Shown here one piece after another: positions 2,028-22,402 of a DNA stretch of 22,760 nucleotides (the first letter of the stretch is position 1; each line of letters begins with the position of its first letter). Under the pieces are notes generated by a model. The model had not been told where the DNA came from, did not search any database, and saw only the letters and a list, made by a program, of their open reading frames with translations. The translations under genes and the position numbers were made by a program. Source of the stretch: a virus; the IMG/VR virus record IMGVR_UViG_3300046000_012997, positions 1-22,760 of that record. One strand, given 5' to 3'.

Positions 2028-4373
2028 TTAAAAAGGTTTGATGTATTGAATAAACTTAGCAATGTAAGCTGTTAACTTTGCAACAGTTGCCTTTTTAAGC
2101 ATAAGATTATAATCAGCTAAAGCCTTGTTATATAAATCAGCTCTAAATAAAGTAATCTCTTTACTAGCTAATGCAGACACTTCATTTTCATCAGTGTACT
2201 TTGCATCAATTGCAGCAATATCTACAAGCTCTAAATTGCCTACAGCAGTTTCAAAATACTGCTTTGTTTCTTCATCTTGTAGAACATCATAAGCATCCAA
2301 AGAATCTTTAATATAAAGTTTTAAATCTTCTTTTAATGATAATAATGATTGATTAAGTTTTGTATCTAATAAACTATCAATTTCTGCCTTAGTAATCGAA
2401 TCAACAGGTAAAGGCGCTGGAGTTGGAACAGGATTAGGAGCAGGCTGTGGATTTGGTTGAGGGATTGGCTGAATAGCATTTCCTTCACCAATAAAATTAC
2501 CACTGTCCCAAATCTGCATATCCTTAGCTTGCATTTGACCAACATCAGTCAATTTTACATTTGCAAGATTACCATCTTCAACCATTGGACATGCATCTTC
2601 ACCCATTCTCGTCCATGCCCAAGTTGCAAATCCAATAACATTTGGATATAACTTTGAAAGCTTCTGCATCTCAATGTTAATGCCTTTCTGCCATTCAACA
2701 TCTCCACAGCCATACTCCTCAACAATTACTGCTACACCCTTATCCAATATTGGCTTTAGGTTTGGAATAACTTCTGTTGCGCCGTTATAAGCATGGTAAG
2801 CGTATGCGTCAACTAACAGAGGATCAATTAAATCATTTGCTTCTGGGGTTGTATTTTCTTTTGACCACTTAGATGTTGGACAAATAAGAAAAGCGTCAGC
2901 ATCAATAGATCTATAAATTGTTGCTGCCTTTTGAAGAATAGGCTTGCACAAACTCCAATCTCCAATATCGTTAGGTTCGTTTGTAAGACAAACCCACACT
3001 GGTAAACCCTTCCAATTATTAGCCATAAGTTCAATAAGTTTATAGAAACCTTCTGACTTCTCGTATAAATCATTGCCTGTTGGAATATGTTGAGGTCCAA
3101 CAATTACATGACATCCAGCGGTAAGCATTTTACCAATAGTATCTTGAATTCTATTTCTATAAATATGGTCAGCAATATATTTATCTGGATTAAATAAAAA
3201 TCTTAAAAACTTATGACCAAGATACTTTAATGAACCAAAATAGCCAATTCTATTATAGTCGGGTGATTCTGACCATAAATATTGGTTACCGTAATTACCG
3301 CCTCTTATAGCTGTAATTGCATTAGCGCCAGTAGTGCCTTCATAAATATTGTATGGAGTGCCATCGAGTTTTACCAATTGTCCATTACTAACTCTAAGTC
3401 TTGGAGGAAGTTTTGAATCAGGACATTTCGTGACCCAGCTATCACCACCGACTTGAATGTTAATACCTGGCCAAACCCAGTTCTGTAATTTCCAATTGTA
3501 ATCAAATAATCCAAACTGTAAATTATGAATACCACTTACATTTGGATAATCAAAAACAATTTCGCCTTCAGAATACCAATATGGATCAGGGCCATCAGCT
3601 ACCTTTGTTGCACCGTCAGGAAGAACATTTGCGCCGTCTTTTCTAGCGTATGCAATCCAAGGTTGTTGAAACATTGAAGCGCCTTTAGCTAATAAGAACC
3701 AACCACCCCAGGTAGTAAAAGTCTTAGCTGGCATCTTAATGATATATGGAATGTGTAATTTGCCATCAGGAGCTGGGTCTTGAATCTTATTAGTCAAGAT
3801 TTCTACAAATGGAGCCTTAACCCTTTTTTGTTTGGTAGTTATCTCAAATGAAACATTTTCAGCCATCTGATCTGCAAGAACTGTCCAATGGTAAGTAAAG
3901 AAAATAAATCTAAAACTATCATATTTTCCAACATCAAATGTGCTTATATCAAAGTTAAAAGTTTGAGTTTCTCCAGAAAATAAACTAAACTTAAAATATT
4001 TTTTAGCTGCATCATCATTTGGAACCCAGTTAACCCATTGCTCTGTAGTTTGTCCAGTTGTTGGGTTTGTGTAAGTTCTTCTCATCCAAACTTGACATAA
4101 ATCTGCATCAATTGGTGCTGATGGGTTTGTTGTTCTGATCTTTAAGTTCACATCTCCAAGATCTACAGTTGGAATTAATTCAAGTTTTTCGAAAAATGAT
4201 GCAAATGAAGATACTTGAAAATCTTCAAATTTGCTCTTGTTTACTTTGTCAATTAAATTGAAATCTTCTTGTAATTGTTCGTTCGGCTTGTAAAAGATTT
4301 CACTAATTTCTACGCCCTTTTCTTGTACCTGGTTAAAATCAGTAGGTAGTTTCTTGTTAAAAAAATTAAACAT
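2028..4373 (-). CDS. Modular glycoside hydrolase family 5 protein with beta-sandwich domains
   Basis: The protein has 781 residues. Two related beta-rich modules (about 68-185 and 205-310) share an aromatic 'F..Y.W' closing pattern. A GH5-type catalytic domain follows (about 322-625): it opens with 'LRVSNGQLVKLDGTPY', carries the acid/base Glu466 in CLTNEPND, and the nucleophile Glu553 in VIVEEYG. GH5 enzymes are retaining beta-glycanases (cellulases, mannanases and relatives). A Pro-rich linker (635-656) joins a helical Asp/Glu/Lys-rich tail to about 781. No signal peptide is visible, so a virion-bound depolymerase or a protein freed at lysis is more likely than Sec export. The ATG at 4373 is preferred over ATG 4391 because AAAGGAG lies five bases before it. 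The gene stands alone, ending at a terminator. The substrate cannot be read from sequence. Confidence 0.82.
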   Translation of the reverse strand: MFNFFNKKLPTDFNQVQEKGVEISEIFYKPNEQLQEDFNLIDKVNKSKFEDFQVSSFASFFEKLELIPTVDLGDVNLKIRTTNPSAPIDADLCQVWMRRTYTNPTTGQTTEQWVNWVPNDDAAKKYFKFSLFSGETQTFNFDISTFDVGKYDSFRFIFFTYHWTVLADQMAENVSFEITTKQKRVKAPFVEILTNKIQDPAPDGKLHIPYIIKMPAKTFTTWGGWFLLAKGASMFQQPWIAYARKDGANVLPDGATKVADGPDPYWYSEGEIVFDYPNVSGIHNLQFGLFDYNWKLQNWVWPGINIQVGGDSWVTKCPDSKLPPRLRVSNGQLVKLDGTPYNIYEGTTGANAITAIRGGNYGNQYLWSESPDYNRIGYFGSLKYLGHKFLRFLFNPDKYIADHIYRNRIQDTIGKMLTAGCHVIVGPQHIPTGNDLYEKSEGFYKLIELMANNWKGLPVWVCLTNEPNDIGDWSLCKPILQKAATIYRSIDADAFLICPTSKWSKENTTPEANDLIDPLLVDAYAYHAYNGATEVIPNLKPILDKGVAVIVEEYGCGDVEWQKGINIEMQKLSKLYPNVIGFATWAWTRMGEDACPMVEDGNLANVKLTDVGQMQAKDMQIWDSGNFIGEGNAIQPIPQPNPQPAPNPVPTPAPLPVDSITKAEIDSLLDTKLNQSLLSLKEDLKLYIKDSLDAYDVLQDEETKQYFETAVGNLELVDIAAIDAKYTDENEVSALASKEITLFRADLYNKALADYNLMLKKATVAKLTAYIAKFIQYIKPF

Positions 4374-4378
4374 ATACA

Positions 4379-4420
4379 CTCCTTTGAGCATAAAGCTCTT
4401 GTGGTAATAATACTATTATA
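4379..4420 (-). promoter_or_regulatory. Putative -10 element and ribosome binding site for the GH5 gene
   Basis: On the minus strand a consensus TATAAT lies at 4420-4415 and a strong AAAGGAG at 4385-4379, five bases before ATG 4373. No convincing -35 is seen 16-18 bases upstream of the -10 box. The Shine-Dalgarno decides the start codon; the promoter call is weaker. Confidence 0.4.
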
Positions 4421-6642: not shown

Positions 6643-6864
6643 ATGACACTTAGTGAAGCATTGATTGAAATGAAAAATAATAAGATTATAAGAAGGGCTA
6701 ACTGTAACACTTCTTATTGTTTTGACTCTAACACTAAAAAGTTTGGTATGGTGATTAAATATAATCAAATCGAAGGTGTTAAGTACGATATAAAATATAA
6801 AGAACAAAATACAATCAGTTTTTATGCTGAAGATTTGTTAGCAGATGATTGGTTGGTTGATTAG
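6643..6864 (+). CDS. Tad2-like/DUF2829-like small protein
   Basis: The protein has 73 residues. The N-terminal motif is LSEALIEMKNNKIIRRANC, where the usual Trp after the basic pair is replaced by Asn-Cys, and the C-terminal motif LLADDWLVD is intact. The middle is beta-rich (YCFDSNTKKFGMVIKY). It begins one base after the previous stop and ends 27 bases before the next member. The lost Trp may mean a changed ligand pocket. Confidence 0.72.
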   Translation: MTLSEALIEMKNNKIIRRANCNTSYCFDSNTKKFGMVIKYNQIEGVKYDIKYKEQNTISFYAEDLLADDWLVD

Positions 6865-6891: not shown

Positions 6892-7110
6892 ATGACAGGC
6901 AAAGAAGCATTGAGCAAATTAGAAGAAGGCTTTACAATGAGACGTGAATCATGGGATCCAGATAATAAATGTAAAGCTTATTTTTCTATTTTTAATAAAA
7001 CTATTCCAGAATCTGTACCTGATGACCCTGCGTTTGATGAATATATAAGTTTTTTTGACTGTCTTGATAATGGTGATTTTTTAGAAGATGATTGGGAAAT
7101 TGTAGAATGA
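6892..7110 (+). CDS. Tad2-like small protein, subtype A copy 1
   Basis: The protein has 72 residues. The N-terminal motif TGKEALSKLEEGFTMRRESW is followed by DPDNKCKAYF, and the C-terminus is GDFLEDDWEIVE. It is clearly paralogous to the gene at 7604, sharing the 'MTG.EAL', 'RRESW.P..KCKA' and 'FFD..D.G.FL.DDWEIVE' blocks. Its final Glu codon and TGA create the ATG of the next gene (GAATGA). The role is unknown beyond the family resemblance. Confidence 0.75.
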   Translation: MTGKEALSKLEEGFTMRRESWDPDNKCKAYFSIFNKTIPESVPDDPAFDEYISFFDCLDNGDFLEDDWEIVE

Positions 7111-7373
7111 AATTTTCTGAAGTAATTGATGCTTTAATGGAAGGTAAACCAATTTCTCGCACTGGTTGGGAAAATAACAACTATATCTTCTATGACAAAA
7201 ATGACAATTGTTTTGTGTTTGTAAATTATCCAGACGACATTGAAAGAAGATATGAATTGGCATCTGTAGGTCTTGATTTATACCCCCGTGATATAATTGC
7301 TGATGATTGGGATATTGATGATTGGGATCCAGACCATATTGTTGACGCTAACAAAAAGGTAGATGAAGAATGA
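7107..7373 (+). CDS. Tad2-like small protein, subtype B copy 1
   Basis: The protein has 88 residues. The N-terminal motif is KFSEVIDALMEGKPISRTGW and the C-terminal motif DIIADDWDIDDWD carries a duplicated 'DDWD' and an acidic tail (HIVDANKKVDEE) absent from its paralogue at 7389. The ATG at 7107 overlaps the previous stop by four bases and is preferred to an upstream in-frame start at 7092. The middle is beta-rich with many aromatics (YIFYDKNDNCFVFVNY), as in the other copies. Confidence 0.75.
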   Translation: MKFSEVIDALMEGKPISRTGWENNNYIFYDKNDNCFVFVNYPDDIERRYELASVGLDLYPRDIIADDWDIDDWDPDHIVDANKKVDEE

Positions 7374-7388
7374 CTTGGAGATGCTGGA

Positions 7389-7607
7389 ATGAAATTTGCT
7401 GAAGTAGTTGACTCATTAATGGCTGGTAAACGTGTGCATAAGACCAATTGGGAAAGCAAAACTGCTTTCTTTCTCTACAATAAGGAAGATAACACTTTTG
7501 ATTTCTATGAAGTTCTGGATGGAGTTGAATGTAGGACGCAATATTACTCATCTCTAGATCTTACTCCTAAAGATTTAATATCTGACTTCTGGGAGGTTGT
7601 AGAATGA
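7389..7607 (+). CDS. Tad2-like small protein, subtype B copy 2
   Basis: The protein has 72 residues. The N-terminal motif KFAEVVDSLMAGKRVHKTNW and middle (FFLYNKEDNTFDFYEV) are paralogous to the gene at 7107. The C-terminal motif is LISDFWEVVE, with Phe in place of one Asp. A GGAG lies upstream (TTGGAGATGCTGGA before ATG). Its stop overlaps the next ATG (GTAGAATGA), the same junction sequence seen between 6892 and 7107. Confidence 0.75.
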   Translation: MKFAEVVDSLMAGKRVHKTNWESKTAFFLYNKEDNTFDFYEVLDGVECRTQYYSSLDLTPKDLISDFWEVVE

Positions 7608-7882
7608 CTGGAATTGAAGCTTTATCCCTGTTAAAAGATGGCAAAACTTTAAGAAGAGAATCCTGGGAACCTCATGAAAAATGTAAAGCTTTAGATTTCT
7701 TTGGCCAATGGATTGTACACTTGGTAAAAGAACAGGATGATGAAAAATTAGACAAAGAATTAGAGTCAATATTTCAAAACAGTTTTACATTCACTAAGAC
7801 TTCTTTTGATGATTTCTTTGGATTGTTTGATACAATAGATGCTGGTGAATTTCTACATGACGATTGGGAAATAGTAGAATAA
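7604..7882 (+). CDS. Tad2-like small protein, subtype A copy 2
   Basis: The protein has 92 residues. The N-terminal motif TGIEALSLLKDGKTLRRESW is followed by EPHEKCKALDFF, and the C-terminus is GEFLHDDWEIVE. Compared with copy 1 at 6892 it has about 20 extra residues, mostly an acidic helical insert (KEQDDEKLDKELESIF). It closes the tight part of the array; directly after the stop lies a short GC-rich tandem repeat. Confidence 0.75.
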   Translation: MTGIEALSLLKDGKTLRRESWEPHEKCKALDFFGQWIVHLVKEQDDEKLDKELESIFQNSFTFTKTSFDDFFGLFDTIDAGEFLHDDWEIVE

Positions 7883-9198: not shown

Positions 9199-9453
9199 AT
9201 GAAATTTGTTCAAACTTTAAAATATCTTAAACAGGGTCATAAAGCCAGAAGAAAAAGCTGGGATGAATTGTTTTGGATTTCTTTAGGTAATACGCAAGAA
9301 GATGATGAAGGAGAGTTTGATGAAACAATTCTCAACTTTTCTGAAATAAACTATGCTACATTTTTCCTTATCAATTTACATGATGGGATAGAAGCATTTT
9401 GCCCATATTTACAAGATATTGAGGCAGATGATTGGATGATAGTTGATGATTAA
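9199..9453 (+). CDS. Tad2-like/DUF2829-like small protein, last of the tight array
   Basis: The protein has 84 residues. Its N-terminal motif KFVQTLKYLKQGHKARRKSW and C-terminal motif DIEADDWMIVDD are both intact, with a beta-rich aromatic middle (LFWISLGNTQED). It begins five bases after the previous stop. Its TAA overlaps the TAA of the opposing zinc-finger nuclease gene, showing that the nuclease gene sits exactly at the edge of the array. Confidence 0.75.
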   Translation: MKFVQTLKYLKQGHKARRKSWDELFWISLGNTQEDDEGEFDETILNFSEINYATFFLINLHDGIEAFCPYLQDIEADDWMIVDD

Positions 9454-13373: not shown

Positions 13374-14183
13374 TTAAATTACAAAACTAAATGTATTTAA
13401 ATGGTTGTTTCTAATTTTGTCTGCATGTTCTGTTCTGTCCCATTGATGATAGATATAAAATGTTTCTTTCTCTTTAGTTTGAACATTCTTACCATCAAAA
13501 TTTACAGGAACAAAGCCCCATTTGATTCCTTCTCCAGTTGCACAAAAAGAATCTGAATATGGAGAACAAACCATCACTTTGGGATTAGACATCAAATAGG
13601 GATATAGGTAATTCAAAGTAGCCTGATCAGTGTTGGATTTACTTAACCTGTTACTATTAATCCAAAGCAACAAAAACAATTGACTTACAGCAAAAGGCTT
13701 TCCGCCAATTGTTCCGCCATTAACAACATAATATTCCATAAAATCATCCTTGTGCGCCGATAAGAATGAATGGTAATATCTCATATCATAATAGTTCCAC
13801 TCGTTTGTTTTGATTTGAACACCCTCATTTACAACAAACAAATCTTTCTCTGGGTGTAACTTCATAAACTCAAATGGATCTTTTTGGATAATTACATCTC
13901 TGAAGTCTACATGCATTACATATTCATAATTATCAAAGTTCTGAACTAACCATTGATAGTAAGACATGAATCTGTCTCTGGCACCATTTAAAATAGGATT
14001 CTGTACTTCAATAACTTCAGTGAAATATTTTTTGAAAGTGGCAATTTGTGATTCAGTAAGATCCTTGACAAAGCAAATTTTATCAAATGTCTTAAACTTA
14101 GATAAGGTGGTTAAAAAGATATCAGCATCAACAGACTCTGCAAAATCTTTTCCTTGAACAAACGTAAGTAATGCATTTTTCAT
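13374..14183 (-). CDS. GT-A-fold-like glycosyltransferase
   Basis: The protein has 269 residues from ATG 14183. It starts with a strand (NALLTFVQGKDF), has charged helices around 'FKTFDKICFVKDL', and contains 'YVMHVDFRDVIIQKDPFEFM', a DxD-like metal-binding site followed by the 'Q.DPF' pattern seen in GT-A glycosyltransferases that use nucleotide-sugars. Later 'YVVNGGTIGGKPF' and 'NTDQATLNYL' also fit the acceptor and donor sites of such enzymes. The ATG at 14183 is preferred over ATG 14210 because the protein fold begins there and the latter would overlap the divergent kinase gene. The sugar transferred is unknown, but the divergent heptose-kinase-like gene suggests a surface glycan. Confidence 0.68.
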   Translation of the reverse strand: MKNALLTFVQGKDFAESVDADIFLTTLSKFKTFDKICFVKDLTESQIATFKKYFTEVIEVQNPILNGARDRFMSYYQWLVQNFDNYEYVMHVDFRDVIIQKDPFEFMKLHPEKDLFVVNEGVQIKTNEWNYYDMRYYHSFLSAHKDDFMEYYVVNGGTIGGKPFAVSQLFLLLWINSNRLSKSNTDQATLNYLYPYLMSNPKVMVCSPYSDSFCATGEGIKWGFVPVNFDGKNVQTKEKETFYIYHQWDRTEHADKIRNNHLNTFSFVI

Positions 14184-14189
14184 ATAGGT

Positions 14190-14199
14190 ATTGTACAAT
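14190..14199. promoter_or_regulatory. Perfect 10-bp palindrome in a divergent gene gap
   Basis: ATTGTACAAT reads the same on both strands and lies in the 25-base gap between the divergent glycosyltransferase and GHMP kinase starts. Its core TTGTACAA recurs at 10449-10456 in the other divergent promoter gap. It may be an operator, but its shortness leaves chance possible. Confidence 0.35.
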
Positions 14200-14208
14200 C
14201 TAAGTGTC

Positions 14209-15186
14209 ATGATAGTAAGTAAAACCCCTTTTAGACTTAGCTTTTTTGGTGGTGGATCTGATTTACCAACCTATTACATGCAAGAAGAAGGCTGTGTAAT
14301 TTCTACTTCTATCGACAAATACATCTACATAACAGTGAACGAAAAGTTTGATAATTCTATCAGGCTTAGTTATTCTGTCACTGAAAATGTAACTGAATCG
14401 AAACATCTCCAACACGATATTGTAAGAAATATTCTGGAAGTATTTAAAATAAAAACTGGAATAGAAATTACATCTGTATCTGATTTACCTTCCAATGGTA
14501 CAGGCATGGGGTCTTCAAGCGCATTTGCAGTTGGTTTAATAAATGCTCTTTTTAAATACACTGATGGAGCTAGACCCAATTCAGAAGCTTTGGCTCTTAT
14601 GGCTTGCGCAGTTGAAATAGATATGTGCGAAAAAACTATTGGCAAACAAGATCAATTTGCTTGTGCCTACGGTGGGTTTAATGAACTTATATTTCAAAGA
14701 AACAGTGTAATTGTAAACCCTATCAACATAAGTCAGGCAGTAAAGGAAGAGTTAGAAGAAAATATCATTCTTCTTTACACTAATACATCAAGACAAGCAA
14801 ATGATATCTTAAGAGAACAGAGCACCAATACTGCATCAAATCAAGCAACAATGAACAACCTTAAAGAAATGGTCAAATTAGCTCATATTTTCAAAGACAA
14901 TGTAATGAAGCAAGATTTGTCTGATATGGGCAAAATGTTAGATTATTCATGGCAATTAAAGAAGAACCTGACAAATAACATATCTAACTCTGAGTTGGAT
15001 GATTTATATAATTACTGCATGACATTAGGTGCTATGGGTGGCAAGATTTTAGGAGCTGGTGGTGGAGGGTTTATGCTTATTTATGCAGACCCACTAGTTC
15101 AAAACAAAATTAGAAAAGAATTGCACAAATATAAGCCTTTCAACATAAAAATAGGCACAGATCGTTCAGAATCACTAAGGGTATAA
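14209..15186 (+). CDS. GHMP-family sugar kinase, heptose-7-phosphate kinase-like
   Basis: The protein has 325 residues. All three GHMP motifs are visible: motif 1 near the N-terminus (TPFRLSFFGGGSDLP, residues 6-20), the ATP-binding motif 2 'LPSNGTGMGSSSAFAVG' (93-109), and motif 3 'GAMGGKILGAGGGGFM' (274-289). 'GKQDQFACAYGGFN' (145-158) provides the likely catalytic Asp148. The start 'SKTPFRLSFFGGGSD' and length are most like D-glycero-D-manno-heptose 7-phosphate kinases (HddA type), which phosphorylate heptose for NDP-heptose synthesis, though other sugars are possible. ATG 14209 is used rather than a TTG at 14191. A methyltransferase follows eight bases later, and a glycosyltransferase diverges from it. 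Confidence 0.82.
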   Translation: MIVSKTPFRLSFFGGGSDLPTYYMQEEGCVISTSIDKYIYITVNEKFDNSIRLSYSVTENVTESKHLQHDIVRNILEVFKIKTGIEITSVSDLPSNGTGMGSSSAFAVGLINALFKYTDGARPNSEALALMACAVEIDMCEKTIGKQDQFACAYGGFNELIFQRNSVIVNPINISQAVKEELEENIILLYTNTSRQANDILREQSTNTASNQATMNNLKEMVKLAHIFKDNVMKQDLSDMGKMLDYSWQLKKNLTNNISNSELDDLYNYCMTLGAMGGKILGAGGGGFMLIYADPLVQNKIRKELHKYKPFNIKIGTDRSESLRV

Positions 15187-15193
15187 TAAAATT

Positions 15194-15748
15194 ATGTATG
15201 TTAACAAAGATTTACCAGCACATTTAGGCGGACACGATAACGAAACACATCTTGATAATGGTGTTCTTGATTATATGATTTCTAAATACAAAATTGAATC
15301 ATATGTAGATGTTGGATGTGGACCTGGTGGAATGGTTGAATTAGCTGCTTCCAAAGGTTTAAGAGTATTAGGAGTTGATGGAGACTATACCTTAAATCAT
15401 AAAGAAAAAACTATAATTCATGACTACACAAAAGGTCCAGCAGATATCAGCGAAAAGTTTGATATGGCTTGGAGTTGTGAGTTCCTTGAGCATGTTGAAG
15501 AAAAATACATGCCTTATTACATGGACACTTTCAAGAGAGCTAAATATGTTGTTTGTACATATGCTGTTCCAGGACAATGGGGACATCACCATGTAAATTG
15601 TCAAACTATGGATTATTGGAAACAAAAGTTTTCAGATTATGGATTTAAGTTCTCAGCTGCAGAAACATTAAAGTTAAGAGAAGTATCCTCAATGCCAGCT
15701 GTACACTTTAAAAGATCTGGAATGTTCTTTATTAATTTAACTCCATAG
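15194..15748 (+). CDS. Class I SAM-dependent methyltransferase
   Basis: The protein has 184 residues. Motif I is YVDVGCGPGGMVELA (38-52) and the next acidic strand end is 'VLGVDGD'. 'FDMAWSCEFLEHVEEKYM' is the catalytic-side block seen in Methyltransf_11/23-type enzymes. 'GQWGHHHVNCQTMDYWKQKF' resembles the conserved end of methyltransferases in polysaccharide clusters. It would methylate a sugar or small molecule; the acceptor is unknown. It is co-directional with the sugar kinase and has a TATAAT over the kinase stop codon (GTATAATAA). Its 3' end overlaps the convergent GDPD-like gene by 17 bases. Confidence 0.8.
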   Translation: MYVNKDLPAHLGGHDNETHLDNGVLDYMISKYKIESYVDVGCGPGGMVELAASKGLRVLGVDGDYTLNHKEKTIIHDYTKGPADISEKFDMAWSCEFLEHVEEKYMPYYMDTFKRAKYVVCTYAVPGQWGHHHVNCQTMDYWKQKFSDYGFKFSAAETLKLREVSSMPAVHFKRSGMFFINLTP

Positions 15749-16181
15749 TCTTGTATTTCTCAATAACATCAGAGCATATTCCATAACACATAGAAAGATC
15801 AGGATAAGAATGATTTTCAGGCATTACACAAATAGATCCTTGAATTAATTCCTCTCCAGTGTAAGTCCAAATATGTCCCTTAGAAGTTAATGTGTAATTG
15901 TCGTTCTGGTGCCAAAAATATTCACTTTTGAAATGAGCCTTGTTCATATAGAGCAGGGCTTCTTTATTTTTACAATGGACAAAAAGCATTTCATTATCTA
16001 AGAAATAAGGTTCTATTTGATATGTGGGTTTATCATGCCCCAAGAAAAGCTTATCATCAATTTTGAATAGGTCTATTTCTACATGATAACCCAAGTCAAT
16101 AGCCCTAATTATATAATCAGGGCTATTTTCTTTTTGCTCATTTATAGAAGTGATATTGCCTCTATGAGAAATTAAAACCAT
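15732..16181 (-). CDS. Glycerophosphodiester phosphodiesterase-like protein, short form
   Basis: The protein has 149 residues, well below the 230 or more of typical GDPD enzymes. The N-terminus is the GDPD signature: 'ISHRGN' (metal and catalytic His), 'ENSPDYIIRAIDLGYHVEID' and 'LFLGHD' (second His). Further on 'FVHCKN', 'YFWHQNDNYTLTSKG', 'IWTYTG' and 'CSDVIEKYK' complete a compact barrel outline. The family hydrolyses glycerophosphodiesters; this short form could act on a phosphodiester in a surface polymer. It is the last gene of the leftward operon, and its start overlaps the previous stop by one base. Confidence 0.7.
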   Translation of the reverse strand: MVLISHRGNITSINEQKENSPDYIIRAIDLGYHVEIDLFKIDDKLFLGHDKPTYQIEPYFLDNEMLFVHCKNKEALLYMNKAHFKSEYFWHQNDNYTLTSKGHIWTYTGEELIQGSICVMPENHSYPDLSMCYGICSDVIEKYKTMELN

Positions 16182-16840
16182 TATCGTTTCTTTGCTAATG
16201 TATCAAATTGGGTGATAACCAACTTGTATCCTAATAGTTGTAATCTTTTAGTGAGCAATGCAACTTCAGTCTTGTCTGAGTGTGAATTGGATTCAAAATA
16301 AATCTGATCTGGACATTTATCATACTCAATAAAGTGATCAATAGCTGCATTCACAAGCTTACAATCATATCCTTCAACATCAACCTTTAAATACTTAATA
16401 TAATCAATTTCGTATTGATCGACTAAGTTTTTAAAGGTAAGACACTTGACATTATCTACATTTACTAGTCCCATTTCCAAAAGGTTGTAGGTAGTAAACT
16501 TAGACTTATCTTCGGCTAGATGCCATTCGTAAGGATTGTAGTAGTAAGCCACATGAAAGTCATGTGGCTTATTTACAGTATTACATCCAGCAAGCCAAGT
16601 ACCCAATTTATGTTCATTGATAGTATCTTCATGAACATAATAGAAATCAATACTTCCATCACCCAAATCTTCATCTGCCACCAAAGCTGCATTAACTTTG
16701 ACTACATTTGGTTTGTTAGGCAATTTATCTTGGTACATTTTGATTGGCTCTACAGATAATCCAATAGTATTATCATCTGCCTTTTCAATTAATGTATCAA
16801 AGAAGCAAGTACCAACTTCTACAAAGTCGTAGGTTTTCAA
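16181..16840 (-). CDS. FkbM-family methyltransferase
   Basis: The protein has 219 residues from a TTG at 16840, or 224 from a GTG at 16855. The TTG forms a four-base overlap with the RuBisCO-like stop and has GGGGA upstream, whereas the GTG lacks a Shine-Dalgarno. Motif I appears as 'YDFVEVGTCFFDTL', with 'GLSVEPIKMYQDKLP' after it, and 'IDYIKYLKVDVEGYDCKLVN' is the hallmark FkbM 'K.D.EG.D' block. FkbM enzymes O-methylate sugars, polyketides and other small acceptors using SAM. The acceptor is unknown. It sits between the RuBisCO-like and GDPD-like genes in a coupled operon. Confidence 0.82.
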   Translation of the reverse strand: MKTYDFVEVGTCFFDTLIEKADDNTIGLSVEPIKMYQDKLPNKPNVVKVNAALVADEDLGDGSIDFYYVHEDTINEHKLGTWLAGCNTVNKPHDFHVAYYYNPYEWHLAEDKSKFTTYNLLEMGLVNVDNVKCLTFKNLVDQYEIDYIKYLKVDVEGYDCKLVNAAIDHFIEYDKCPDQIYFESNSHSDKTEVALLTKRLQLLGYKLVITQFDTLAKKR

Positions 16841-18012
16841 TCTACAATTCCCCACTTATTAATTGCATCAAGGTATTCAGGCCCAAAAGACTTGTCAATA
16901 GCCTGCCTCATTGCCTTAGCGCCTGCAACTGTTCCCTTTGGATGACCATGCAAAGCTCCTCCACAGTTAGCAAGATAATTGATTCCAAACTTTTCAGTAA
17001 TGGTGTTGACAATTCCAGGATGCATCCCGCAAGATAATGCTGGGACTACATTTCTAGAATGAAGAATGCCCATTGTTTTCCTTAGGTCGTTTTCATCATC
17101 GCTTGCGTATCCGCCCCACATTCCAGTATGAATGAAGTCAACGCCCATTAAGCCTGCCAAGTAGCAAATTACACTCCAATCGATATGGAAAGCATGCTTC
17201 TTGTTTGTGAGGATCTTGTCACCACTCTTTTGGAAGTGCATAAACAATGGTAAATCTAATTCTCTTACAGACTTATAAACACCCATGCCTGACCAGAAAT
17301 TGATGTGGATTCCGTTACCACCTTCTTGATGAACAAACTTAACTCTATCAAGAATATGTGCTGGGTCTGAATTGATACAGAAGCAATAAACTACATTCTT
17401 ATCTCTAATATAATCAGAAATAAGAGAGACTCTGTCTTCTAATCTGCAACACTCAGGATTGGACATAATTTCATCTTCTTTGATAAAATTAACCCCACCA
17501 TCAACCATTTCTTTAACCATGTCTAGAAGAATGCTTGGGCTGATTCCAGTCTTAGGCTTACAGATACCACCCAACAAAGGCTTGTCATGTGCTTTAGTAA
17601 ACTCTCTTGCACCAGTAATTCCAAACTTAGGTAGCTTAAAATACTTTTCAATAACCCAGTCAGGAATTACAAGCTTTTCAAGCCAGCATGTTTCAATGGT
17701 GTCAATATCAAGTTGCCCACCCATTAAGAAACATAGAAGCTGAGAAACACCATCTGCAGAAAAATCAATGTTTGCTACAGGGAATCCAATTTCTACTCGA
17801 CCAGATGTTTTTTCTAAATCAGGGCAATTCTTAACGACACAAGAATGATTATAAAAAAGCTCATCTGTTTCTCTTTCAAGTCTTACTAAAGGATTGCCAA
17901 CACTCTGACCAATTGCAAGATTCCAAGCAGCATCCCTTACGCCTTTTGCAGATTCTAAAAAATAAAATCCCTTGATATATCTTTCAGAATCAATTTCATC
18001 TACAAAAATCAT
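16837..18012 (-). CDS. RuBisCO-like protein (form IV-type), phage-encoded
   Basis: The protein has 391 residues, shorter than a carboxylase large subunit (about 470) and close to known RuBisCO-like proteins. The N-terminal domain holds 'PVANIDFSADGVSQLL'. The barrel keeps 'GGICKPKTGIS' (148-158; Lys152 aligns with K175) and 'GGVNFIKEDE' (172-181; Lys178, Asp180 and Glu181 align with the carbamylated K201, D203 and E204). His259, His295 (DFIHTG) and Ser327 align with H294, H327 and S379. Where loop-6 K334 should be there is Tyr302, and the N-terminal E60/N123 positions look replaced, so true CO2 fixation is unlikely. It probably does enolase or decarboxylase-type chemistry on a phosphorylated keto-sugar (inference). 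GAGGTG lies six bases before ATG 18012. It overlaps the cupin gene by four bases. Confidence 0.9.
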   Translation of the reverse strand: MIFVDEIDSERYIKGFYFLESAKGVRDAAWNLAIGQSVGNPLVRLERETDELFYNHSCVVKNCPDLEKTSGRVEIGFPVANIDFSADGVSQLLCFLMGGQLDIDTIETCWLEKLVIPDWVIEKYFKLPKFGITGAREFTKAHDKPLLGGICKPKTGISPSILLDMVKEMVDGGVNFIKEDEIMSNPECCRLEDRVSLISDYIRDKNVVYCFCINSDPAHILDRVKFVHQEGGNGIHINFWSGMGVYKSVRELDLPLFMHFQKSGDKILTNKKHAFHIDWSVICYLAGLMGVDFIHTGMWGGYASDDENDLRKTMGILHSRNVVPALSCGMHPGIVNTITEKFGINYLANCGGALHGHPKGTVAGAKAMRQAIDKSFGPEYLDAINKWGIVD

Positions 18013-18335
18013 TCTTTCACCTCATATTTATCCCCAGGAACAGATGGAGATTTCACACAAATTATTGTACAGTCTTCAAGGAATTCTGGTTCCGCAATTT
18101 CATTTTTTTCAATTAAAAATATATTACCAGGTGTTAATTCTTCACCATTTAAAACCATCTTTCCAGAAATTAAAACATTGATTTCTACAGCTTCTTTATG
18201 AAAATGCTTAGGCCATTTCTCACCTTTTGAATGAAATAAAACACCAACTTCAAATTGATCTGTTTTATAAATGGATGGTTCAAAATTACCTACAAACCAC
18301 CCCCTAAACATATTTTTTAAATCGTCTCTAATCAT
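18009..18335 (-). CDS. Single-domain cupin
   Basis: The protein has 108 residues. Residues 44-58 (HFHKEAVEINVLISG) match cupin motif 1, HxH-x4-E-x6-G, giving metal ligands His44, His46 and Glu51. The second motif (TPGNIFLIEKNE) lacks the usual His, so the metal site may be incomplete or use another ligand. Small cupins act as sugar isomerases or epimerases, acireductone-type dioxygenases, or binding proteins; the sequence alone does not choose. It overlaps the methyltransferase before it and the RuBisCO-like gene after it by four bases each, so a shared pathway is likely. Confidence 0.82.
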   Translation of the reverse strand: MIRDDLKNMFRGWFVGNFEPSIYKTDQFEVGVLFHSKGEKWPKHFHKEAVEINVLISGKMVLNGEELTPGNIFLIEKNEIAEPEFLEDCTIICVKSPSVPGDKYEVKE

Positions 18336-18946
18336 CTTATTTTTACGAAGCTAATACCCCAGTCATTTGGTTCCGTACATGTTTTATCAATTACATATCT
18401 TTCAGGATTTAGCGCATTTATAAAGCTTCTTGGACCTGGATGATAATTAGTGTCATGCAAGCAAACAATTCCAGTGTTGCTCAAATACTCAATAAAACGC
18501 CACTCTTTTAGTACATGATTAATGCTGTGCCAACCATCAATAAAAATGAAATCAAAATGACTTACACCCTTTGAATTGACAAATGACATAATCTTTTCAA
18601 TATCAGCAGAATCTGATTGAATAGTGTAAACATTTTGATCGTGCTTATCTAAAAATGTTTTATCCTTAATGTCAACTCCAAAATAGAATGCATCATCTCT
18701 TTTTTGATTAATTAAGATATGAGAAAGAGACGATGCATCATTATTGCAAACACCAATCTCTAAAATAGATGTGCATTGATGTCTTACAGAATTAAAATTT
18801 TGAATAAACTTCTCTCTGTTACAATCTGAAATCTCAAAAATAATATTTCCAGGACAGTTAGCATCCCAATCTGCATCATCATAAGGAGAAAAAGTTCTGA
18901 TTTCTTTTAGTAAATCTCTAAAAACTATTTGGTCTATTGTAATCAT
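18332..18946 (-). CDS. SAM-dependent methyltransferase, tandem copy 2
   Basis: The protein has 204 residues. Motif I is 'CTSILEIGVCNNDASSLSHI' and later come 'FYFGVDIKDK', 'FDFIFIDGWHSINHVLKEW' and 'GIVCLHDTNYHPGP', the layout of family 24 enzymes. It is paralogous to the gene before it in the operon (shared 'MITID.I..RDL.KEIRT', 'ILEIGV', 'HDTN.HPGP' and 'DWG..F'). The substrate is unknown, and 'HDTNYHPGP' is a strong marker of the pair. Four-base overlaps join it to both neighbours. Confidence 0.8.
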   Translation of the reverse strand: MITIDQIVFRDLLKEIRTFSPYDDADWDANCPGNIIFEISDCNREKFIQNFNSVRHQCTSILEIGVCNNDASSLSHILINQKRDDAFYFGVDIKDKTFLDKHDQNVYTIQSDSADIEKIMSFVNSKGVSHFDFIFIDGWHSINHVLKEWRFIEYLSNTGIVCLHDTNYHPGPRSFINALNPERYVIDKTCTEPNDWGISFVKIR

Positions 18947-19554
18947 AATTTTTTAGTAATAAATGTTAAACCCCAGTCAGTATTCGACACACATTTCTTG
19001 TACACTTCATATTTATCAGCTTTTAAATTATTAACAAGCTCTATAGGACCAGGGTGAAAATTAGTGTCATGGAAAGCAATAATTCCATCATCATCTAATA
19101 ACTCAATATATCTCCAATCATTTAAGACTTGATTAATACTAGCCCAGCTGTCAATAAAAATAAAATCTACCTTTTCTACACCATGCTCATTTAAAAAACT
19201 TTTGACTTCAAGAATGTTAGAAGAATCTGTTTTGATAGTGTAGATATTTTTAGAAGAACTATTCAAATAAATTCGATCTTCTTTATCAACTCCAAAATAT
19301 TTAGTTGTTTCTAATTTATTATCGACAAAAAACTTTGTGAAAGATCTTTGCGAGTTTGAAGAAACACCTATCTCTAAAATTGATTTACATTCACTCTTCT
19401 TCATACTAAAAAAATGATTTAATTCATCAATATTAGAAACAGATACTTCTACTGGTGGTTCAAATGTAAGAGGCCAGTCAGAATCGTCATGATCAGTGTA
19501 AGTTCTAATTTCTTTATATAAATCTCTTTTAATAATTTCATCAATAGTTATCAT
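18943..19554 (-). CDS. SAM-dependent methyltransferase, tandem copy 1
   Basis: The protein has 203 residues. It is paralogous to the next gene: 'MITIDEIIKRDLYKEIRTYT', 'KSILEIGVSSNSQRSFTKF', 'VDFIFIDSWASINQVLNDW' and 'GIIAFHDTNFHPGP'. In the third block Gly-Trp-His of the partner is Ser-Trp-Ala here, so a possibly catalytic His is missing, and this copy may have changed activity or act as a partner subunit (inference). Its start lies 14 bases inside the nucleotidyltransferase gene. Confidence 0.8.
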   Translation of the reverse strand: MITIDEIIKRDLYKEIRTYTDHDDSDWPLTFEPPVEVSVSNIDELNHFFSMKKSECKSILEIGVSSNSQRSFTKFFVDNKLETTKYFGVDKEDRIYLNSSSKNIYTIKTDSSNILEVKSFLNEHGVEKVDFIFIDSWASINQVLNDWRYIELLDDDGIIAFHDTNFHPGPIELVNNLKADKYEVYKKCVSNTDWGLTFITKKL

Positions 19555-20263
19555 TTTGGTTTACCTCTAAAAATGAGTTCAAATCTTCTTCAGTACCTAT
19601 TGCCCAATGCTGACAATTAGGAATATGATAAATGCCTACTTTATAACCGCCTTCAACTAATTTGTTATATGAAGGGCCAATATAAAATTCACCATTTGGA
19701 GCTCTTTCATTAGCAGCAATCATAGCATTGGCACTTTCTACAAAATAACGACCAGATTTCCAAAAGTGTATTCCATTTAAAGAAATATTACTAATTACTT
19801 GCTTCTCTTGGATTTCTGTTACATTGCCTGATTTATCCAATTTAGCGTAACTATTCTTATCAGTATCAGCAAAATAAGTTACAACAAAACCATCTTTAGG
19901 ATAATTATTGCAAAATGATTGAAATGTTTTTTTATCCCAATGCATAATTTGATCACAGTTAGTAATAATTAAAGGCTCTGAATTATTAATAAGATCTTTT
20001 GCTAGTAATGCTGTACATGCTGGGCCTTCTGTCAAATGATCAACAGAAATAACAGTGCAATTACAAATCGAATGCAGTATTTCATCAACCTTGTAGTCTC
20101 TGATGTGTTCTTCTCTAACAATAAAAATATAATTTCCATCAATTCCTAAAGATTTAATTACAGCCTCAATCATATACTCATTGTTGAATTTTATAAGGGG
20201 TTTAGGCACTTTACTATTAGGAAATCTACTTCCTAGCCCAGCCATAGGAATTAAAATATTCAT
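19541..20263 (-). CDS. Sugar-1-phosphate nucleotidyltransferase-like enzyme
   Basis: The protein has 240 residues. The N-terminus 'ILIPMAGLGSRFPNSKVPKP' (3-22) is the nucleotide-binding loop and catalytic Lys21 of the NTP_transferase family, 'LIITNCDQ' (98-105) supplies the metal-binding Asp104, and 'NGEFYIGPSYNKLVEGG' with 'HWAIGTEEDLNSFLE' completes the pattern. Such enzymes join a sugar phosphate to a nucleotide to make an activated sugar. The nucleotide and sugar are unknown. It is the first gene of the seven-gene operon, behind a plausible promoter, and its 3' end overlaps the next gene by 14 bases. Confidence 0.85.
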   Translation of the reverse strand: MNILIPMAGLGSRFPNSKVPKPLIKFNNEYMIEAVIKSLGIDGNYIFIVREEHIRDYKVDEILHSICNCTVISVDHLTEGPACTALLAKDLINNSEPLIITNCDQIMHWDKKTFQSFCNNYPKDGFVVTYFADTDKNSYAKLDKSGNVTEIQEKQVISNISLNGIHFWKSGRYFVESANAMIAANERAPNGEFYIGPSYNKLVEGGYKVGIYHIPNCQHWAIGTEEDLNSFLEVNQNDNY

Positions 20264-20278
20264 AATTATATTTTACCA

Positions 20279-20307
20279 CTTATAAAAAGACACAAAAATT
20301 ACGACAA
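20279..20307 (-). promoter_or_regulatory. Putative promoter of the RuBisCO-like operon
   Basis: On the minus strand TTGTCG (20307-20302), 17 bases, then TATAAG (20284-20279), sixteen bases upstream of the nucleotidyltransferase ATG. It overlaps the stop of the homing endonuclease gene. The fit to sigma70 is moderate. Confidence 0.4.
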
Positions 20308-21450
20308 AGCATCAGATAAAGACATACCTTTTTTAAGCAAACGATATTTTAAAGTAAGATATTTAACTTTGCATCTTGGGTCTTTGCTCCATTGAAGAAT
20401 GCTTTTTTCTTCTCCATCTAATTCAAAGAAATAAGTCTTCTTCTTAGCATCAGGATTTACCCAAAGAGTTTTACCTTTATCTGGTTTAGTTGACATAGCA
20501 ATTTCAGCAGGTACATTTCTTTTTAAAATTCTATCTCTTAAACAACCCTCATCAACAACACATCTTTCATCTTTGATCCAGTCTTTGATGTGCTTCTTTT
20601 CACCCCAAGCTTCAATATAAAGTGTAGATCTTGAATCTCTATTATCTTCTTTTAAATGAGTAATATTTTTTAAAACATCATTTAAAGCAGATCTATTTAC
20701 GTTATATTTGAGTGAAAGCTCATTGATGTTTAAGTCACTATCCTGTCTAATAGCTTGGGCTAAATTATAATCAATTTTTTTAGTTTCAATAACATCATCA
20801 TCTAAATGTGCAATATAGCTTTGATAAATGTCATATTTTCTTTTCAAACGATTATTTTCATTCGAATCAATATATATCCATTCAAGAAACTTTAAAGCTG
20901 ATTGTTGACCTGAATAATAAAGTTCAAAATAAGATCCATTATCTTGAATTGAACCTATTTCTTTGCCGTAGATTTTTTCAAATTCTTTTTTGAGTCTTTC
21001 AATAAAAGGCAAAGTGCTTACTAATTTGCAAATAATTTTTTTCTTGTTAGGATTAGAGTCTTGAGCTAAGCCTACGTGCCCATCTCCATCAAAATATCCA
21101 CGAACAAAATGAGAAATATATTGTTCAGGTATTTGTTCAATCCATTTTAATTCTTGAGATTTATGATTTGTTAACCCAAAATTTTTCATGTCTTGTGCAA
21201 TTTCTTTAGATATAATATTAAATTGGACATTATTTGAGTTTTTTCTATAATGCAAAGGGCCATCATATTCAAAAAAGTTATAAAAATTTTGAAGAATATA
21301 ATCATCCTTTTTATGTAATTGAAAATAAATAATATTTCTTTTTATGTCTAAGTGACCATCAGCGCAAAAAAAGCCCAAAAAATAGGCCATATTATTAGAC
21401 CAAGTTTTTAAGTAATTGTGATTTCTATTATATTTAGAATTATTTCTCAT
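20299..21450 (-). CDS. LAGLIDADG homing endonuclease with added DNA-binding modules
   Basis: The protein has 383 residues. Two LAGLIDADG helices are seen: 'YFLGFFCADGHLD' (23-35, catalytic Asp31) and 'FVRGYFDGDGHVG' (115-127, catalytic Asp123), so one chain can form the whole active site and cut a long DNA target. Residues about 228-262 look like a helix-turn-helix (AQAIRQDSDLNINELSLKYN). Two related C-terminal modules follow ('EAWGEKKHIKDWIKDERC...' and 'ELDGEEKSILQWSKDPRC...', each ending in 'LK..MS..AL'-type helices), likely extra DNA reading parts. It lies directly beside the major capsid gene, a usual location for freestanding phage homing genes. There is no Shine-Dalgarno; TATAAT lies seven bases before the ATG. 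Confidence 0.83.
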   Translation of the reverse strand: MRNNSKYNRNHNYLKTWSNNMAYFLGFFCADGHLDIKRNIIYFQLHKKDDYILQNFYNFFEYDGPLHYRKNSNNVQFNIISKEIAQDMKNFGLTNHKSQELKWIEQIPEQYISHFVRGYFDGDGHVGLAQDSNPNKKKIICKLVSTLPFIERLKKEFEKIYGKEIGSIQDNGSYFELYYSGQQSALKFLEWIYIDSNENNRLKRKYDIYQSYIAHLDDDVIETKKIDYNLAQAIRQDSDLNINELSLKYNVNRSALNDVLKNITHLKEDNRDSRSTLYIEAWGEKKHIKDWIKDERCVVDEGCLRDRILKRNVPAEIAMSTKPDKGKTLWVNPDAKKKTYFFELDGEEKSILQWSKDPRCKVKYLTLKYRLLKKGMSLSDALS

Positions 21451-21547: not shown

Positions 21548-22402
21548 TCAACTCACAGTAATTTTTGACACAGCAAAGTCGTTGATGAGCGCAAATCCGA
21601 GCTCTTCGTAAACAACCCATCCGAGTCTAAGTCTCTTTGGATCGTCTGCTGGGAGAACGGTGATGTCTTGGCGAACTGGCAATGCACCAACGAATTGTGC
21701 AGGTGCGAGAACGTATACAGAGTTCTTAGGAACCATTGTGGAAACGTGGATGTCTGCGGAATAAATATGTCCGTAGAGACCAGTCATAAGAACGTCTCTT
21801 TGAGTTGCCTCATCGAAGAATTCCTTACCCCAGTTTCTGATATCCTTGTATCTTTGTGGGTGAAGAACAACCTTAGCACCAATGAGTTCGTGCTCTTCGA
21901 TGAGGGTCAACGCAAGGTTGATGTTCTCTGGTTGAAGAGTACCGGAAACAGAGATGGATTGGTCGGTTGGAACACCAGCATTGATAACCTTGAAGACTTC
22001 TGTATCTTCTTGTCTTTGGAGGGAGTCCTTAGCACGGACTTGAGCTCTATCGACAATGTAGAATCTTCTTTGGCGAATCTCATTGAGTCTGATTTGTGGG
22101 TGTGCAGCCAACTCGATGGTTGGTACGAGGAGTTCTTCTGCTTCAACTTCAGCGGAAGGAACGCCACCACGCTTAGGAATGACGTAGGACTTAACTGCAA
22201 CGTCTCTCTCATAGCGAGCAAGAGCGCCTTGTGGGAGCTCATCAACCATCATCAACTTACGACCAATTGCTTGATACATAAGGGAAGTCTTGATTGGTTC
22301 AACCATAGCTTGTGCAAGAGCTGTACGACCTTCAGCGGTCTCGAGCGCCATAGCGATAATGGCCTCTCTTTGCTCGTTGGAATTTCTTTTAATCATTGAC
22401 AT
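21548..22402 (-). CDS. Major capsid protein (HK97-fold type)
   Basis: The protein has 284 residues. The helical N-terminus (EQREAIIAMALETAEGRTAL, then VEPIKTSLMYQAIGRKLMMV), 'DELPQGALARYERDV', and the strand-rich part with 'RQRRFYIVDRAQVRAKDSL' and 'VLHPQRYKDIRNWG' resemble major capsid proteins of HK97 fold from large tailed phages. It builds the head shell. AAGGAG lies 11 bases before ATG 22402 (a second ATG is at 22396). Codon choice is visibly more G+C-rich and uniform than in the accessory genes, as expected for the most highly made protein. It is preceded by another structural gene on the same strand and followed by a terminator. Confidence 0.83.
   Translation of the reverse strand: MSMIKRNSNEQREAIIAMALETAEGRTALAQAMVEPIKTSLMYQAIGRKLMMVDELPQGALARYERDVAVKSYVIPKRGGVPSAEVEAEELLVPTIELAAHPQIRLNEIRQRRFYIVDRAQVRAKDSLQRQEDTEVFKVINAGVPTDQSISVSGTLQPENINLALTLIEEHELIGAKVVLHPQRYKDIRNWGKEFFDEATQRDVLMTGLYGHIYSADIHVSTMVPKNSVYVLAPAQFVGALPVRQDITVLPADDPKRLRLGWVVYEELGFALINDFAVSKITVS

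Follow-up and report, generated by a model that had tools for sequence, protein, structure and literature searches.

The window analysed here is a stretch of viral DNA of 22,760 nucleotides (IMG/VR record IMGVR_UViG_3300046000_012997, positions 1 to 22,760), and the feature under study is a minus-strand gene for a RuBisCO-like protein (RLP). Upstream of the RLP gene on the same strand lie a cupin gene, two paralogous methyltransferase-like genes, a nucleotidylyltransferase (NTPt) gene, an endonuclease gene and the gene for a phage major head protein. The genes that bear on the RLP are the following.

14191..15186, plus strand: GHMP-family sugar kinase resembling heptose 7-phosphate kinase HddA (PF00288, 1.7e-13; NF049969, 1.2e-54, below its equivalog cut-off)
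15732..16181, minus strand: HRGN-motif protein, 149 aa (motif only; no Pfam match)
16181..16855, minus strand: FkbM-type methyltransferase-like protein, overlapping the 3' end of the RLP gene (PF05050, 2.4e-4, just below cut-off; TIGR01444, 4.5e-5, below cut-off)
16837..18012, minus strand: RLP, 391 aa (PF00016, 4.6e-33; model TM ~0.80 against form III RuBisCO; clade placement)
18009..18335, minus strand: cupin, 108 aa, dedicated partner of the RLP (weak Cupin_7 match below cut-off; H44/H46/E51; RLP in 76 of the 80 viral loci found by the cupin)
18332..18946, minus strand: methyltransferase-like protein, first of two tandem paralogues, in the operon (weak PF13578 and PF04989 matches, below cut-off)
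18943..19554, minus strand: methyltransferase-like protein, second paralogue, in the operon (PF13578, 1.7e-5, just below cut-off)
19541..20263, minus strand: sugar-1-phosphate NTPt, 240 aa, of an RLP-linked subfamily (PF00483/PF12804; PDB profiles; structural model)
21548..22402, minus strand: phage major head protein, context outside the module (phrog_2522, 4.8e-68; 97% identical and syntenic in a 316-kb contig)

This 316-kb IMG/VR contig shows the same order, with the head protein (97% identity), the NTPt, one methyltransferase, the cupin and the RLP (92%), followed by the GHMP kinase and a counterpart of the window gene at 13374-14210. Its one methyltransferase is a homologue, at the same place, of the product of 18332..18946, and the conserved GHMP kinase is a nearby glycan gene that lies in the window on the strand opposite to the RLP. 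Terminase_6N had no match in the 316-kb contig, and a terminase is encoded on 13 of 18 long related contigs. With the head protein as a phage hallmark gene near it in two contigs, the RLP is phage-encoded, as the sequence-only reading had claimed. The RLP gene is under purifying selection (dN/dS ~0.04 against the 92%-identical copy, with a similar value for the capsid gene). An endonuclease gene (phrog_4645, 20299-21450, minus strand) stands between head protein and NTPt in the window; in the 316-kb relative the NTPt begins within ~110 bases after the head protein, so the endonuclease gene looks recently inserted.

Fold and active site of the RLP

The minus-strand open reading frame of 391 aa (18012 to 16837) is intact, and the plus-strand frame there is full of stops. 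The earlier claim of a full-length RuBisCO homologue at this position, made with the strand left unstated, is borne out by profile, PDB sequence and structure comparisons, including the profile search and the structure prediction that it had proposed. Pfam RuBisCO_large (PF00016) matches with 115 bits against a curated cut-off of 30.1, which places the protein in the RuBisCO superfamily. The best NCBIfam profile is that of form III (8e-47), yet this match is far under the equivalog cut-off. There are 99 distinct matches among PDB sequences, with 2cwx at the top (1.5e-31), and the AlphaFold2 model (pLDDT 83) superposes on form III RuBisCO with a TM of ~0.80 at 23-24% identity over the structurally aligned residues. 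The RLP is a full RuBisCO-fold protein. It falls far below the equivalog cut-offs for MtnW (PRK09549, 122 bits against 409; TIGR03332, 94 against 513.6) and for OiaX (NF042437, 128.5 against 700). The form IV-Photo structures 1ykw and 1tel score ~62 bits and form III 113, which speaks against form IV-Photo in a comparison of sequences only, the tree described below having no IV-Photo row.

Residues were read from an alignment with enzymes of forms I, II and III and several RLP references, and are given with spinach numbering on the right of the equals sign. The RLP retains K152=K175, K154=K177, K178=K201 (the carbamate lysine), D180=D203, E181=E204, H295=H327 and S327=S379, all in common with archaeal form III RuBisCO (2cwx, 3a12, 8dht), which also gives the best profile, sequence and fold matches; glycines G381 and G403/404 are retained as well. 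In contrast to form III, E60 and N123 are each replaced by Gly, H294 by Gln261, R295 by Lys262, H298 by Asp265 and the loop-6 lysine K334 by Tyr302, and T65/W66 are likewise lost. The replacements of K334, H294, E60 and N123 run throughout the aligned clade, in which Tyr302, Gln261 and both Gly are invariant. Retention of K177 is unusual, this residue being lost in the OiaX, kinase-linked, MtnW, Firmicutes and Deep-Ykr-like references. The residue placement of the sequence-only reading stands for Lys152, Lys178, Asp180, Glu181, His295, Ser327 and Tyr302 at the K334 position, but fails for His259, which aligns with the non-catalytic spinach position 292 and gives way to Phe in some clade members; the position of catalytic His 294 is taken by Gln261. 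The RLP lacks the complete catalytic set of a bona fide RuBisCO (K334, H294, N123, E60) and, as a RuBisCO homologue without the essential carboxylation residues, belongs to form IV in the broad sense, which agrees with its first description as form-IV-like rather than RuBisCO proper. These losses suggest that the RLP would be non-carboxylating.

Among 112 unique full-length viral sequences, the metal-site motif FIKEDEI (K201/D203/E204) is present in all 112 and the motif HxQKSGD in 94, with 2 further sequences differing only at its first residue. Another 16 of the 112, here called sub-clade B, carry QSSG and IQxGM, that is, Ser at the R295 and Gln at the H327 position together (L293, L256, L331, L239, L283, L247, L280, L335, L292, L296, L278, L272, L275, L320, L310, L286), while 2 of the 112 have Gln at the H327 position without Ser at R295. 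Most sub-clade B loci retain the NTPt and the cupin and keep the same gene company as the main type. From these substitutions, sub-clade B may represent a second specificity or substrate class.

Clade and distribution

In a tree built by a quick method with no bootstrap, a single branch unites the 28 viral representatives, dereplicated at 80% identity, with 20 cellular rows (SH-aLRT 100; stem of ~1.0 change per column). The clade stands apart from all references in this tree, namely forms I, II and III, OiaX and kinase-linked RLPs, Firmicutes RLPs and the rows that we provisionally take, from their motifs, to be MtnW and Deep-Ykr-like RLPs; forms IV-Photo, IV-GOS and IV-AMC lie outside this reference set. 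The RLP does not group with forms I-III, and the sister group of the clade is weakly supported (75). A deep separate branch shared with other phages had been proposed as the test of a new group; such a branch is what the tree gives, with cellular members inside it too. Viral and SAR11 rows are intermixed, which implies transfers.

At least 297 IMG/VR stretches carry clade relatives, as confirmed with a profile-derived pattern pair. Cellular copies are rare by the patterns used, with 24 loci in ~85,000 species genomes, one of which (Desulfosporosinus, 24% identity) lies outside the clade. The carriers include SAR11, Legionella, Azospirillum and Elusimicrobia; within one SAR11 family 3 of 297 genomes have a copy, and within the Legionella genus group 4 of 22. 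A Crocinitomicaceae metagenome-assembled genome (MAG) locus, L055, is identical over the RLP to the viral contig L041 and is probably a viral contig binned into the MAG; a Sphingobacteriales contig with a clade member may be phage too. Some cellular records are therefore probably viral contigs in bins. The INPHARED phages gave no RLP match, and the plasmid matches listed reach at most 31% identity, being other RLPs and RuBisCOs. Three genes of the RuBisCO family occur together in Azospirillum oleiclasticum (genome G002; L071, L154, L165), one of form I, one for a kinase-type RLP and one of the present clade. Two alphaproteobacterial RuBisCO-family proteins (L182:284-2029 and L183:305-1930) have an N-terminal helix-turn-helix-like segment, lack the carbamate lysine motif and group with form I on long branches.

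Ocean surveys in 2007 already contained unplaced RuBisCO homologues (PMC1821046), and an 'IV-GOS' RLP group has been listed since (PMC10173188). This marine metagenomic group has no assigned function and may be the same as the phage clade. If so, the novelty of the clade is lower, and that of the module and its viral setting is unaffected.

A three-gene module of RLP, cupin and NTPt

The start of the RLP gene overlaps the stop of the cupin gene by 4 nt, as expected from the overlapping operon first described, and in the clade these two genes as a rule share an overlap or are almost contiguous. An NTPt gene lies on the RLP strand no more than 3 kb away in 27 of the 28 dereplicated lineages from viruses and in 15 of the 17 cellular loci; the cupin does so in 22 of the 28 and 6 of the 17. 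The reciprocal test is the strongest evidence for the module. The best 80 viral loci retrieved by the cupin contain the RLP in 76 cases and an NTPt in all 80; among loci retrieved by the NTPt, those of the RLP type (at least 50% identity) have the RLP in 14 of 15, whereas the next 64 (43-47%) have it in 1. These lists contain related contigs, and their counts differ from numbers of independent events, the 28 dereplicated lineages being the fairer sample. The reciprocal counts mark the cupin, together with a single NTPt subfamily, as dedicated partners of the RLP and sharpen an operon with sugar-type enzymes, as it was first read, into a specific three-gene module.

The cupin has an invariant H44, a near-invariant H46 and an invariant E51. 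The NTPt matches PDB profiles of 4evw, ManC-type, RmlA and GlmU proteins, and its model (pLDDT 95) reaches a TM of 0.85 to 4evw, with a fold like that of RmlA/GlmU, so that fold and profile agree on its family. Since it resembles mannose-1-phosphate guanylyltransferase, GlmU and RmlA in both respects, a sugar-1-phosphate is its likely substrate. All three genes are kept in Azospirillum and Elusimicrobia. Legionella and many SAR11 copies lack the cupin, which is thus not always needed. In the SAR11 loci L061, L063, L064, L065 and L066, two different nucleotidylyltransferases flank the RLP, without a cupin. The Legionella RLP-NTPt pair adjoins a LicD-family gene on the other strand, a hint at transfer of a phosphate-linked group to a glycan. 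An apparent NTPt-RLP fusion in Azospirillum (706-aa ORF) came from reading an alternate frame of high-GC DNA; the NTPt and the RLP are encoded by separate genes there.

Around the clade as a whole, the neighbours are glycosyltransferase, WavE-like, methyltransferase and GHMP kinase genes, and LicD genes in Legionella. The HRGN-motif protein, which resembles the N-terminal half of a glycerophosphodiester phosphodiesterase, lies near the RLP in 24 of the 28 viral lineages; as a part of the core module it was dropped, since it is also present in 47 of the 64 NTPt loci of which just 1 has the RLP. It is a general glycan-island companion.

Discussion

What is new here is the company of the RLP, a dedicated NTPt and cupin with reciprocal specificity. 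The reading that best accounts for it, to which we assign a probability of about 0.6, is that a non-carboxylating, metal-dependent RLP enolase/isomerase of a separate clade works with its cupin and NTPt in a nucleotide-sugar pathway for glycan modification, the target being surface polysaccharide on either the infected cell or the virion. Given that the metal-carbamate site and K175/K177 are kept and K334, H294, E60 and N123 are lost, the RLP may enolise and re-protonate its substrate without carboxylation. In the proposed mechanism Lys178 would be carbamylated and bind Mg2+ as in RuBisCO, the RLP would enolise a phosphorylated keto-sugar and re-protonate it in an isomerase or epimerase step, and Gln261, Lys262 and Tyr302 would shape the pocket for some substrate that is not ribulose bisphosphate; the cupin could carry out a further isomerisation or epimerisation and the NTPt would activate the sugar for transfer. 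As a counter-reading of the linkage, the module, lying inside glycan islands, could simply travel with them by shared transfer.

The known roles of RLPs are in sulfur salvage and the breakdown of sugar acids; to our knowledge a biosynthetic role has no precedent among them. The open-licence PMC literature held nothing relevant that links an RLP with LPS or nucleotide sugars. The tie to NTPt and cupin, if it holds, places the RuBisCO fold in glycan biosynthesis and gives an unassigned branch a testable function. The closest RLPs with sugar substrates, OiaX and those linked to four-carbon-acid-sugar kinases (3nwr type), act on sugar-acid phosphates and share ~28-31% identity with the phage RLP, but they keep K334 and H294 and have lost K177, the opposite of what is seen here, stand on a separate branch and have the neighbours of catabolism, kinases, transporters and aldo/keto reductases.

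The alternative that survives best, although we regard it as unlikely, keeps the same module and reverses its order, with the RLP acting after activation on a nucleotide-linked keto-sugar, for example in NDP-sugar epimerisation or rearrangement. Many nucleotide-sugar cupins act after activation, and the first-phosphate lid side chains (T65, W66 and K334, together with E60 and N123) are substituted but the backbone glycines are retained, a combination that might accommodate a bulkier group; against this order, we know of no RLP with a nucleotide-linked substrate. Much less probable is a role in methionine/MTA salvage, either as MtnW or as in the MTA-isoprenoid shunt of Rhodospirillum rubrum, where an RLP with enolase/isomerase chemistry is likewise paired with a cupin (MTRu-1P isomerase and MTXu-5P sulfurylase) and the reaction of the RLP is an isomerisation (PMC4958253). 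The phage RLP belongs to another clade than the MtnW and Deep-Ykr-like rows and has other pocket residues, keeping H327 and S379 unlike those rows; its MtnW equivalog scores are far too low, its constant partner is a nucleotidylyltransferase and its neighbours are glycan genes rather than MTA genes.

A true RuBisCO that boosts host carbon fixation, which is how viral rbcL has been interpreted in print, is less probable still. Viral rbcL genes have been described as carbon-fixation genes in viruses of the Great Salt Lake (PMC8506154), of landfills, where the gene clustered with 'RbcL-like' proteins (PMC12607003), and of estuaries (PMC13390420, PMC13288924), and for mining soils activity was claimed on co-expression with rbcS (PMC12615777), for a protein that is not known to belong to the present clade. 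The sequence-only reading knew of no described phage example; in this it was mistaken as regards viral rbcL, reported several times (PMC8506154, PMC12607003, PMC12615777), and right in so far as the available parts of these reports present such genes only as carbon fixation and mention no NTPt-cupin module. The phage RLP is a RuBisCO superfamily member with form III as its best profile, but K334, H294, E60 and N123 are replaced, its clade is separate, no phosphoribulokinase or small-subunit gene was recognised beside it, and it is linked to the NTPt and cupin instead. In IMG/VR the canonical GxxxxKDDEN DNA pattern occurs in 3 stretches, 0 of 3 with a RuBisCO HMM match, against at least 120 with the motif of the phage clade; single-protein patterns for form I RuBisCO, which reach close relatives only, gave 1 candidate in viral contigs, unconfirmed. 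The phage clade, with its at least 297 stretches, may be a source of viral 'rbcL' annotations, which several papers count as carbon fixation, and the K334 and H294 positions of such matches should be checked before they are read in this way. Rather than fixing carbon, the phage RLP probably contributes to the synthesis of an unusual sugar that goes into surface coatings. More tentatively, and at rather less than even odds, we speculate that the RuBisCO fold was recruited to nucleotide-sugar biosynthesis in a mainly viral module, where it catalyses a reaction new to the family whose substrate may be a nucleotide-linked sugar, and that this glycan enzyme lies behind many of the viral rbcL genes annotated for 'carbon fixation'.

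Misjoining of bacterial sequence to phage in assembly, which the sequence-only reading had raised against itself and for which relatives in a few bacteria and single-cell genomes might speak, is ruled out for practical purposes by the second contig with head protein, NTPt, cupin and RLP in one order, by the number of viral stretches and by the terminase genes on most of the long ones.

Two further features lie at the other end of the window. On the plus strand between 4478 and 9453, short ORFs share a pattern like 'RRxxW ... DDWxIV' and are apparently a tandem paralogous family (for example 6643-6864, 6892-7110, 7092-7373, 7389-7607, 7604-7882 and 9199-9453). On the minus strand, 2028-4391 encodes a protein of 787 aa, part of which resembles a glycoside hydrolase (cellulase-like 'LTNEPND...EEYG'); its only PHROG match is weak and falls outside that part.
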